DNA of 64,000 bases, taken from contig RPFO01000645.1 in assembly GCA_009746045.1 (NCBI GenBank), positions 386,185-450,184 on the forward strand, read 5' to 3'. Positions 57,671 to 63,600 of this stretch are shown one piece after another; the stretch's first letter is position 1; each line of letters begins with the position of its first letter. A program made the position numbers and the translations under genes. Below the pieces are notes generated by a model, which saw only the letters and a list, made by a program, of their open reading frames with translations, was not told the DNA's origin and did not search any database. The DNA comes from Mesostigma viride. Lineage: Eukaryota > Streptophyta > Mesostigmatophyceae > Mesostigmatales > Mesostigmataceae.

Positions 57671-60600
57671 ATGATGCTGCCTTTAGGGGGGTCCAGTGGT
57701 CGTCCGGGTGCAGCTGCTGCCCCCGTCGCGGGTCTCACTCAGCGATTCCAGGTCGATCTTCGCAAGTCGGAGCTGGTTTCATACAAGAAACTGGTGGCAG
57801 AAGGGAGTGGAGGAGGAGCGAGCTTGTCACGTGCAGCGGGCTCTGCCAGCAAGGTGATCTTCTCCTCATTTGTTAGTAGCTACCATGAATAACATGCGCC
57901 GGCACCATCCCGTGTACATGCTCGCGGCATGCCAGTGTTCATCCTTGTGCTTGGCTTCACGTTTGCTTGTCCCCCTGCCTAGTTTAGTTTCTGTTTTTTG
58001 AACCCAGCCATTCCTTCATTCCCTGAATTCCATTAGCAATGGCGCTGCCGCACCGTTCCAAGTCAGGGCTCATGCCTCCCTCATTCCACTCATCATTGCC
58101 CGCCCGTACGTGCGATGTGCCTGGGAGCGCGCAGGATCCCCTCTTTGGAGACTTGATACCCAATGATCCGCTGCCACCTGTGCGCAACCAGTTCCACTCT
58201 GTCATCGAGCGCATCGAGCGACTCTACGCGGTGAGTGGGGGGTGTCCGATCCATTTGAGTACTCGCTGCCTTTAAAGCTAGCAACTCTGTACATGAATAT
58301 GGAACATCTCTAGCACGGGGCGTGTTAGAAGCTCATTCAGCCCACCCATATGCATCCTGCTTCACTTTCCCCCCTCCTGCCCCCCCCCAGCCACCCAACC
58401 CCACTCCAACCCCAACCCACCTTCAAACTATGGTTGGTTGGGCTTGCGCTGGGAACCGGTAGCCATGTTTGTCCCTTGCACATTGCCATGTGGTGGAGAC
58501 ATTATGGGCGGCGGCATGGCGTGGTTCCACTCTGTCGTGTGTTTTCGCTGTCACTGCAGCGAGTCCCTTGCACCGAGAGCCATCCATGCCTCGCGCTGAT
58601 GGCATGCCCCCACCGTGTATACCAGTAGGTAGCTGTCCGAGCACCGCAGATGACAGTTGACAGCCGCTTCCATTGGGGGGGTGGGGTTGCTTCCTTTTAG
58701 CGGTTGAGGAAGTTTTACGGCATGGGTTGGGGTTGGGGTTGGGTTGGGGTTGGGGTTGGGGTTGGGGTTGGGGTTGGGGTTGGGGTTGGGGTTGGGGTTG
58801 GGGTTGGGTTGGGGTGGGGTTGGGGTTGGGGTTGGGGTTGGGGTTGGGGTTGGGGTTGGGGTTGGGGTTGGGGTTGGGGTTGGGGTTGGGGTTGGGGTTG
58901 GGGTTGGGGTTGGGGTTGGGGTTGGGGTTGGGGTTGGGGTTGGGGTTGGGGTTGGGGTTGGGGTTGGGGTTGGGGTTGGGGTTGGGGTTGGGGTTGGGGT
59001 TGGGGTTGGGGTTGGGGTTCGGGTCGGGTCGGGTCGGGTCGGGGTCGGGGTCGGGGTCGGGGTCGGGGTCGGGGTCGGGGTCGGGGTCGGGGTCGGGGTC
59101 GGGTCGGGGTCGGGGTCGGGGTCGGGGTCGGGGTCGGGTCGGGGTCGGGGTCGGGGTCGGGGTCGGGGTCGGGGTCGGGTCGGGGTCGGGGTCGGGTCGG
59201 GGTCGGCGGGGTCGGGGTCGGGGTCGGGGTCGGGGTCGGGGTCGGGGTCGGGGTCGGGGTCGGGGTCGGGGTCGGGGTCGGGGTCGGGGTCGGGGTCGGG
59301 GTCGGGGTCGGGGTCGGGGTCGGGTCGGGGTCGGGGTCGGGGTCGGGGTCGGGGTCGGGGTCGGGGTCGGGGTCGGGGTCGGGGTCGGGGTCGGGGTCGC
59401 GGGGTCGGGGTCGGGGTCGGGTTGGTTCTACTAGGGATGACCTAACTGGCGGTGATATGGTTCTTGCAACAGATTGGCGGATGGTCGCACCTGAATATCA
59501 TGGCCATCCATGTCTGGGATTTTGTTGACATCATTATTGCTTGCACGTTGGCCCCACCCAGAACCCCTGCGGTTCCGACGACGAGGATGCGTCCCAGAAC
59601 ATGCACGACGACGGCAGCAGTGACGACGGCGATGATGGCGACGGCAGTGGGTCGGATGAGGGCGGCGGCGGCGACAAGAAGAAGACGACAAAGAAGCGGC
59701 GGCGCGCCAAGGACCCCAAGGACGACTACTATGACACGGACGACTCGTTCATCGATGACGAGGACCTGGTGGGTGCCATAAATGGCTTGTTATACAGTCC
59801 AAATGACCATGAGGGCTCTATATCTAGCGCACCATATCCAATGGATGAGAAGCTGACATTTTCTTGGAATGCCGCCTTGTGGTACCTCGAGCGCGATCAA
59901 TGACCTCGTCTTGAGTAGAATCGTATCTTGTGGCACGTTAGAAACGTGTGGTAGGGTTTTGCTGTACCCAGATGTTGTGTAGAGAAGAATGAGGTTTCTG
60001 TTGTATCATGGTGCAATCAGGATATGGGGTTGCGAGACGCAGACCTGGCTATGGCCTATTTTTGTTTGACGGCAAGGCCAACGTCATGGAGGAGGGGTGC
60101 CCCATCAGCCATTTTGCTCGTTCCGGTGTCGTCCCCCCCGTCCCACTTTTGGACGGGAAGGTGCCTGTTGGTCCGCCCACAATGGGTTCCGTCGTCCAGT
60201 TGCAGGAAAGGAAGGAGTTCCGAGTTACAGTCGTGGTCCAAGTGGCTGCCCGGAAGGACTTGCGCGTTGTACTAGACAGATGTCAGTCGTCGTCCAGTAT
60301 GGACGGGAGGAGCGACCAGATCTTGTGGAGTCTTGTGGTCAGTAGCTCTTGTGGTAGCTGGTGCACTTCGCAAACTAATGGCCGGTCAGGGTCCGGTCAT
60401 GTAATGGCCAGCCCAGCCACTGCAGTTGGTTATGTGCGCGCATCCTGTGGCAGCCATGTCTGCTGCTGGTGCTGCTGCTGCTGCTGCTGCTGCTGCTGCT
60501 GCTGCTGCTGCTGCTGCTGCTGCTGCTGCTGCTGCTGCTGCTGCTGCTGCTGCTGCTGCTGCTGCTGCTGCTGCTGCTGCTGCTGCTGCTGCTGCTGCTG

Positions 60601-63600
60601 CTGCTGCTGCTGCTGCTGCTGCTGCTGCTGCTGCTGCTGCTGCTGCTGCTGCTGCTGCTGCTGCTGCTGCTGCTGCTGCTGCTGCTGCTGCTGCTGCTGC
60701 TGCTGCTGCTGCTGCTGCTGCTGCTGCTGCTGCTGCTGCTGCTGCTGCTGCTGCTGCTGCTGCTGCTGCTGCTGCTGCTGCTGCTGCTGCTGCTGCTGCT
60801 GCTGCTGCTGCTGCTGCTGCTGCTGCTGCTGCTGCTGCTGCTGCTGCTGCTGCTGCTGCTGCTGCTGCTGCTGCTGCTGCTGCTGCTGCTGCTGCTGCTG
60901 CTGCTGCTGCTGCTGCTGCTGCTGCTGCTGCTGCTGCTGCTGCTGCTGCTGCTGCTGCTGCTGCTGCTGCTGCTGCTGCTGCTGCTGCTGCTGCTGCTGC
61001 TGCTGCTGCTGCTGCTGCTGCTGCTGCTGCTGCTGCTGCTGCTGCTGCTGCTGCTGCTGCTGCTGCTGCTGCTGCTGCTGCTGCTGCTGCTGCTGCTGCT
61101 GCTGCTGCTGCTGCTGCTGCTGCTGCTGCTGCTGCTGCTGCTGCTGCTGCTGCTGCTGCTGCTGCTGCTGCTGCTGCTGCTGCTGCTGCTGCTGCTGCTG
61201 CTGCTGCTGCTGCTGCTGCTGCTGCTGCTGCTGCTGCTGCTGCTGCTGCTGCTGCTGCTGCTGCTGCTGCTGCTGCTGCTGCTGCTGCTGCTGCTGCTGC
61301 TGCTGCTGCTGCTGCTGCTGCTGCTGCTGCTGCTGCTGCTGCTGCTGCTGCTGCTGCTGCTGCTGCTGCTGCTGCTGCTGCTGCTGCTGCTGCTGCTGCT
61401 GCTGCTGCTGCTGCTGCTGCTGCTGCTGCTGCTGCTGCTGCTGCTGCTGCTGCTGCTGCTGCTGCTGCTGCTGCTGCTGCTGCTGCTGCTGCTGCTGCTG
61501 CTGCTGCTGCTGCTGCTGCTGCTGCTGCTGCTGCTGCTGCTGCTGCTGCTGCTGCTGCTGCTGCTGCTGCTGCTGCTGCTGCTGCTGCTGCTGCTGCTGC
61601 TGCTGCTGCTGCTGCTGCTGCTGCTGCTGCTGCTGCTGCTGCTGCTGCTGCTGCTGCTGCTGCTGCTGCTGCTGCTGCTGCTGCTGCTGCTGCTGCTGCT
61701 GCTGCTGCTGCTGCTGCTGCTGCTGCTGCTGCTGCTGCTGCTGCTGCTGCTGCTGCTGCTGCTGCTGCTGCTGCTGCTGCTGCTGCTGCTGCTGCTGCTG
61801 CTGCTGCTGCTGCTGCTGCTGCTGCTGCTGCTGCTGCTGCTGCTGCTGCTGCTGCTGCTGCTGCTGCTGCTGCTGCTGCTGCTGCTGCTGCTGCTGCTGC
61901 TGCTGCTGCTGCTGCTGCTGCTGCTGCTGCTGCTGCTGCTGCTGCTGCTGCTGCTGCTGCTGCTGCTGCTGCTGCTGCTGCTGCTGCTGCTGCTGCTGCT
62001 GCTGCTGCTGCTGCTGCTGCTGCTGCTGCTGCTGCTGCTGCTGCTGCTGCTGCTGCTGCTGCTGCTGCTGCTGCTGCTGCTGCTGCTGCTGCTGCTGCTG
62101 CTGCTGCTGCTGCTGCTGCTGCTGCTGCTGCTGCTGCTGCTGCTGCTGCTGCTGCTGCTGCTGCTGCTGCTGCTGCTGCTGCTGCTGCTGCTGCTGCTGC
62201 TGCTGCTGCTGCTGCTGCTGCTGCTGCTGCTGCTGCTGCTGCTGCTGCTGCTGCTGCTGCTGCTGCTGCTGCTGCTGCTGCTGCTGCTGCTGCTGCTGCT
62301 GCTGCTGCTGCTGCTGCTGCTGCTGCTGCTGCTGCTGCTGCTGCTGCTGCTGCTGCTGCTGCTGCTGCTGCTGCTGCTGCTGCTGCTGCTGCTGCTGCTG
62401 CTGCTGCTGCTGCTGCTGCTGCTGCTGCTGCTGCTGCTGCTGCTGCTGCTGCTGCTGCTGCTGCTGCTGCTGCTGCTGCTGCTGCTGCTGCTGCTGCTGC
62501 TGCTGCTGCTGCTGCTGCTGCTGCTGCTGCTGCTGCTGCTGCTGCTGCTGCTGCTGCTGCTGCTGCTGCTGCTGCTGCTGCTGCTGCTGCTGCTGCTGCT
62601 GCTGCTGCTGCTGCTGCTGCTGCTGCTGCTGCTGCTGCTGCTGCTGCTGCTGCTGCTGCTGCTGCTGCTGCTGCTGCTGCTGCTGCTGCTGCTGCTGCTG
62701 CTGCTGCTGCTGCTGCTGCTGCTGCTGCTGCTGCTGCTGCTGCTGCTGCTGCTGCTGCTGCTGCTGCTGCTGCTGCTGCTGCTGCTGCTGCTGCTGCTGC
62801 TGCTGCTGCTGCTGCTGCTGCTGCTGCTGCTGCTGCTGCTGCTGCGCTGCCGCTGCTGCCGCTGCTGCTGCGCTGCCGCTGCTGCTGCTGCTGCCGCCGC
62901 CGCCGCCGCCGCCACCGCCGCCGCCGCCGCCGCCACCGCCGCCGCCGCTGCTGCTGCTGCTGCTGCTACTACTAATCCCATTGCCCTTATCTGCGCCTTG
63001 TTGGTTTCTTGTCCCTGGATGCCCTGGCGGATGTGGTGGCGCCCCAGGATGCGTTCATGGAGGCACGCGGCGCGCCCCAGCAGGAGTCCAAGTCAGGTTT
63101 CTTCATCAACAAGGGAACCATGGCTGAGAAGTGAGTGATGGCTGCGAGGCATGCGGTTCTTGCACGAGAGGATGAGAGGCACTGTATGGTTGGAGGCATC
63201 AAGGCACGCAAGCCTGGCGGAATGGTGTAGGGTCTAGGGTGGGTGAGTGCTAGTGAGGTATTAGGTTCATAGGGGTCATGGGCACACCTTTTAGGGTTTG
63301 CTAGGGTTTGTTGGCTGATGGTTTTCTGTTTCTTGCCATCGTTGGCATTCAAGAGCAATTATGTTGCCCATGCGGTGTCTGCTGGGAACGGACGCCAGAG
63401 AGATACCTGCGGGTCTTTACCTGCAGATGACATGGCTGCCCAGGGAAGGTGATGATCCGTTTCGACTTGCTGCCTAGTCTTTGCTGGCACATCCTTCACC
63501 TTGTGCCCACTAATAACCTCACTGATGCCCACACGATGCCCACCGTTAAATGAACTTATCTTCATCTGGCACTCATGTTTGCTTCTCACATCTGGCACAC

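Follow-up and report, generated by a model that had tools for sequence, protein, structure and literature searches.

How a pure triplet tract of nearly eight hundred CTG units came to lie within a gene of a green alga, and whether it has anything to do with that particular gene, is the question raised by a 64,000-bp stretch of the Mesostigma viride genome (hereafter the window, C1846:386185-450184). Placing this array in the intron of a ubinuclein-type gene model, and searching the whole assembly (439,911,974 bases in 2243 contigs), we favour an explanation that we consider probable: the intronic (CTG)792 would be one outcome of a tendency of this genome to let CTG.CAG tracts grow in place, and would play no dedicated role in ubinuclein. 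Triplet expansions of such size have been studied mostly as human disease alleles. The main interest of this system lies in the conjunction of kilobase CTG arrays, a growth step from four to 800 units and muscleblind-like proteins, and less in ubinuclein.

The CTG array and its host intron

The array is an exact period-3 run at positions 60470-62845 of the window (plus strand), with CTG on the coding strand. Its 2376 bp comprise 792 units, 791 of which are whole CTG triplets, with neither mismatch nor indel, and a chance origin of such a run is out of the question. Tandem Repeats Finder (TRF) extended the tract to 60460-62967, with 836.7 copies at 99% match. The original prediction of a ~ 2.4-kb pure tract of about 790 units was therefore borne out, with a start at 60470 instead of 60472. 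The two edges are contrasted, the 3' one being far more degenerate. On the 5' side (60460-60469), three CTG units (60460-60468) are followed by the G of a GTG variant, while the 3' edge extends over 120 bp (62846-62965) of CCG, CCA and CG variants interspersed with CTG blocks of five and six units, beyond which the sequence reads CTACTACTAAT. Interruptions had been claimed for the 3' edge only; the degeneracy of this edge was recovered but not its exclusivity, given the GTG variant of the 5' edge. With the 3' edge included, the array carries 3.2 interruptions per kb, and its unbroken CTG run is the longest among all the arrays that we read. The window contains no N. The sequence evidence comes from one assembly of one strain, of which the read type is not stated and on which the array length rests.

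The array is enclosed by two exons that together encode a HUN domain. The exon at 59562-59768 (plus strand) carries the first half of the domain and scored only 19.7 bits against the Pfam HUN profile, below the gathering cut-off of 26.9 bits. Once joined to the exon at 63048-63130 (plus strand), which carries the second half and is followed by GTGAGT, the score rose to 37.1 bits and the alignment covered 50 of the 52 profile positions. This increase supported the predicted location of the array, with 59768 and 63048 as the flanking exon ends, and the orientation of the HUN exons agreed with the prediction of CTG on the coding strand, i.e. of CUG if the intron is transcribed. The coding sequence probably begins with an exon at 57671-57853 (plus strand), which joins in phase with the two HUN exons, both resulting introns being of the GT-AG type. 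No domain was detected by a Pfam search of this first exon, but we take its N-terminus to resemble those of plant ubinucleins. Members of this family are histone chaperones of the HIRA complex, in which a UBN_AB domain is expected downstream of HUN. UBN_AB was not seen in one guessed join and two single frames of the downstream sequence L011, where the exon boundaries are not established. The HUN domain and the N-terminal likeness suggest that the host gene is of the ubinuclein type. The proposed histone-chaperone host is thus supported by a HUN score above the cut-off, but no special tie to this gene is indicated, since the array is one of several.

The host intron, as delimited by the HUN join, spans 59769-63047 (plus strand; GT at 59769, AG at 63046-63047) and measures 3279 bp, or 903 bp without the pure array. 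According to this gene model, the array would lie inside the intron, be transcribed as CUG and be removed by splicing. Just 3' of the repeat, a TACTAAT motif (62970-62976, plus strand), close to what we take to be the branch-point consensus, represents a putative branch-point element, and the first AG downstream of it is the acceptor itself (63046-63047). AG dinucleotides are absent from the sense strand of the array but number 791 on its antisense strand. Because the CUG strand lacks AG and the array stands upstream of the branch-point-like element and the acceptor, its growth would alter neither the branch-acceptor distance nor the number of acceptor dinucleotides, which may explain how such an array would be tolerated in this intron. 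All six reading frames are open across the array, and a coding repeat (i.e. an exon encoding a poly-amino-acid stretch) was also considered; it was rejected because the one frame continuing in phase from the HUN exon runs into a stop at 62973-62975. One intron upstream in this gene model (57854-59561), there is a TTGGGG, then TCGGGG repeat of ~ 700 bp (58724-59425, plus strand), G-rich on the coding strand, so that long arrays occupy two successive introns of this ubinuclein-type gene model.

CTG tracts across the genome and their proposed growth in place

To place the array in its genomic context, CTG tracts were counted in the whole genome and compared with those of the motif read backwards. 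The sequence (CTG)11 was found at 28184+32367 places, overlapping matches included, against 3200+4531 for the reversed motif. Counted as edge-defined runs of at least 11 units, in one of the three phases, CTG reached 335+345 = 680 runs and the control 39+44 = 83. The sequence (CTG)64 occurred at 17413+21093 places and its control at 533+1275, making the latter 21-fold rarer; the window array contributes, by arithmetic, 728 of these 38506 places, near 2%. T-edged runs reaching 64 units or more amounted to 20+22 = 42 for CTG, 11 of which sit in two clusters on contigs C1491 and C1824, and to 9+8 = 17 for the reversed motif, which likewise attains 64 units at some loci. Along contig C1, twenty spaced samples of 10 kb (two of them all N) contained no CTG run of at least 30 bp, and among other pure repeats, with periods of up to 8 considered, the longest measured 361 bp. 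Long CTG arrays are sparse along the chromosome, yet they far exceed the length reached by other motifs in this sample. CTG expansion has occurred at many loci and the ubinuclein-type gene is among those hit, with no evident tie to that gene. A literature search with narrow terms found no report of natural long CTG repeats. In Chlamydomonas and Volvox, tandem repeats are described as densest in introns, and the available text of the same source gives GT/AC as the main intron motif of green algae (PMC3887541).

Besides the window, five loci with CTG runs of more than 60 units were read. L009 contains 756 pure CTG units with GCT, TGC and TGA runs alongside (2.01 interruptions per kb), L035 contains runs of 717 and 447 units split by a single CTTG (0.57 per kb), and L034 contains 68 units. 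The two largest arrays are bordered by assembly gaps. In L032, an array of 7542 bp (3.05 interruptions per kb) adjoins an N gap and is cut by the end of the fetched sequence, whereas in L033 an interrupted array of ~ 5.9 kb (5.23 per kb) is followed by an N stretch that begins 25 bp past the last run. The changes of 1 bp, TG or CTTG, account for 20 of the 23 interruptions in L032 and for 16 of the 31 in L033, and look like long-read consensus error. The caution that the assembled length might be approximate was therefore justified, in view of the N gaps at these two sister arrays and their many 1-bp indels. At L032 (C1824:318000-325999), the CTG.CAG tract exceeds 7.5 kb, and runs on the same contig extend to 329.9 kb, so that this array may exceed 11 kb.

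An indication of how such arrays arise comes from L009, whose ~ 2.6 kb of triplet repeats (4519-7162) sit within a dispersed repeat. Four other copies of this repeat could be matched on both sides of the array, in the window near 19580 and 38850, in L030 near 8820 and in L012 near 1760, with identities of 69-77% per BLAST piece. All four (4/4) carry exactly (CTG)4 at the corresponding point, where L009 displays (CGC)10, CTG runs of 33, 756 and 22 units, and (TGA)44. This comparison of four units with about 800 points to growth in place, a four-unit seed having grown about two-hundredfold in one copy. Extended to several loci, this would mean that CTG.CAG tracts grow where they stand, from a short seed up to the kilobase range. 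Slippage and hairpin-primed expansion are the most likely mechanism, the growth itself being seen by comparison at this one sister locus. The slippage expansion initially proposed for the window array is thus strengthened by the (CTG)4 seeds of the L009 family. Another repeat offered a similar contrast, its two copies in L034 and L001 having flanks that are 90-94% identical over ~ 1 kb each, while the CTG tract counts 68 pure units in L034 and is short and interrupted in L001. Some CTG seeds have therefore been dispersed by repeats and have grown locally afterwards. In a set of 34 sequences, as in another of 26, the 691 and 81 bp that border the window array had no match other than themselves.

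Muscleblind-like CCCH proteins

Searching the genome with the PF22628 zinc-finger profile returned nine matches at two loci, on contigs C2022 (L038, C2022:1644900-1653499) and C557 (L039, C557:2782100-2783799), both encoding muscleblind-like tandem CCCH fingers. Among PDB sequences, and hence among solved structures only, the best matches of these algal proteins were MBNL1 and MBNL2. MBNL1 came first for the C557 frame (E 2.3e-13, against 0.013 for CPSF30, the best other family, and 0.015 for a ZAP structure) and for two C2022 frames (E 4.5e-11 and 5.2e-12); one of the top entries, 2e5s, listed without family name, is presumably a muscleblind protein. The C557 frame runs over 515 codons without stop and encodes eight CCCH fingers, arranged as three pairs and two single fingers. 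Its three tandem pairs share 29/64, 29/66 and 32/63 identical residues with an MBNL1 pair (44-51%, over 63-66 aligned columns), and in the second finger of each pair four inserted residues precede the third Cys.

Profile comparisons gave a less univocal picture. PF22628 was the best Pfam model for six of the seven algal frames, the seventh, a C2022 exon, falling below the cut-off; it was also the best model both for the MBNL1 stretch (79.7 bits) and for the C557 frame (128.2 bits). Pfam's own name for this model is 'ZAP-like', which weighs against a plain muscleblind label. In addition, the C557 frame passes a PARP12-like finger model (60.9 bits for a cut-off of 27, with 0 stretches passing singly), to which the MBNL1 stretch had no match at E 0.01. 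The muscleblind assignment of C557 is accordingly tentative. Compared with animal MBL/MBNL proteins, the algal ones are thus alike in their tandem CCCH pairs, and unlike in belonging to a green alga and, for L039, in their eight fingers, their inserted residues and their match to the PARP12-like model. Third-position GC was 0.751 for the C557 frame and 0.753-0.855 for four window frames. Chlorophyll-binding domains gave 33 matches in the genome, with three weak ones on C2022 and no match on C557. Given the similar third-position GC and the matches on C2022, contamination appears unlikely as the source of these loci, a judgement held less firmly for C557.

These fingers make a candidate partner for the idea of CUG sequestration, and a probable side effect of the array would be that its nascent or excised CUG RNA forms a hairpin bound by muscleblind-like CCCH proteins. 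The available text of PMC5041496 describes plants as devoid of any muscleblind-type protein and the family as apparently exclusive to metazoans. Our literature searches combining muscleblind with Chlamydomonas or with green algae showed, among the papers listed, no title about an algal muscleblind.

Competing explanations, known systems and other features

Several observations weigh against a simple growth in place with easy tolerance. The motif bias is weaker when one counts long T-edged runs (42 against 17) than when one counts repeat units, and only five loci with runs of more than 60 units (L009, L032, L033, L034 and L035) were read besides the window. The array lengths may be approximate given the N gaps of L032 and L033 and their many 1-bp indels. 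Moreover, intron retention has been reported with GC-rich intronic expansions in people, so that easy tolerance is not a given (PMC7988464). A more radical doubt would be that the 792-unit run was made by the assembler or polisher, the true tract being much shorter or longer. The N gaps that touch the L032 and L033 arrays or lie no more than 25 bp away are in line with such an artefact, as are the interruptions of these two arrays, 20 out of 23 and 16 out of 31 being of the TG/CTTG type that resembles long-read consensus error. However, kilobase arrays of the same motif stand at several loci with differing flanks, with the control 21-fold rarer at (CTG)64, the window is free of N, and a short-read assembly could hardly produce such tracts, which makes this explanation rather improbable. 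It appears highly unlikely that the array was carried into the intron as a CTG seed on a mobile element or a dispersed repeat; this is the situation of two of the five arrays with readable flanks (L009 and L034, among the window, L009, L033, L034 and L035), but the flanks of the window array have no counterpart in the 34 sequences compared, a small sample.

The two remaining alternatives attribute a consequence to the array. By analogy with IIL1 of Arabidopsis Bur-0, which bears a GAA expansion in an intron, the repeat could silence or slow its host gene, and the occurrence of long arrays in two successive introns would fit such an effect; yet the motif differs from GAA and such arrays are present at other loci too, so that we give little credence to this possibility. 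In the plant precedent, as reported in the available text of two sources, the expansion silences its gene via small RNAs, with H3K27me3 (PMC12177298; PMC5006647). The algal array resembles it as a natural triplet expansion in the intron of a plant-lineage gene, and differs from it by its CTG motif and its several loci, where IIL1 combines a GAA/TTC motif, a single locus and a known phenotype. Conversely, the repeat could be active through its RNA, the CUG transcripts of several loci titrating muscleblind-like proteins and thereby tying splicing to the CUG load, or these proteins having adapted to coat or neutralise the repeats. We regard this as conceivable but unlikely. The tandem fingers encoded at two loci, 44-51% identical to an MBNL1 pair, argue for it, together with the human cornea, where the intronic CUG expansion of TCF4 is reported to sequester MBNL1 (PMC7988464). 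Against it, the co-occurrence of arrays and fingers in one genome may be accidental, and C557 also passes the PARP12-like model, unlike the MBNL1 stretch. Growth in place without a dedicated role in ubinuclein remains the explanation that we prefer.

Human expansions provide further close points of comparison. The myotonic dystrophy type 1 (DM1) expansion of DMPK has the same motif, orientation and size class, but its tract is located in the 3' UTR whereas the algal one would be intronic. The TCF4 repeat CTG18.1 of Fuchs corneal dystrophy resembles the algal array more closely in position, being an expanded CTG in sense orientation within an intron of a broadly expressed regulator, and yields CUG RNA, with MBNL1 sequestered in foci and intron retention as reported consequences (PMC7988464). 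It is, however, a human disease allele at one locus, while the alga presents several arrays as a state of its reference genome, known from sequence alone. With several giant arrays and a growth step from four to ~ 800 units, this alga represents a natural test of living with long CTG.CAG DNA and CUG RNA. A bolder proposal, to which we attach only a low likelihood, is that of a non-animal counterpart of myotonic dystrophy biology, in which kilobase CTG arrays and muscleblind-like proteins reading CUG RNA, as a tolerated load or a splicing buffer, would coexist in a green alga, muscleblind then having arisen before animals. If the algal proteins do bind CUG, the link between CUG and muscleblind would predate animals, contrary to PMC5041496, and a system other than patients or mice would be available for the study of tolerance.

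Other features were noted along the way. Shorter pure repeats are present in the window, namely (ATGTC)42 over 213 bp (8516-8728), (GAATT)52 over 261 bp (37480-37740) and a (GA)61. In L023 (4255-4334), eleven GGTTTAG units, which we take to be the plant-type telomere motif, lie inside contig C1. Green-type rbcL genes were found on contigs C602, C879, C900 and C996, with 1gk8, presumably from Chlamydomonas, as the best PDB chain. Finally, a single open frame on the minus strand of the window (54398-56476) encodes a ROK-family domain and, C-terminal to it, a P-loop AAA_33 domain, an unfamiliar fusion.

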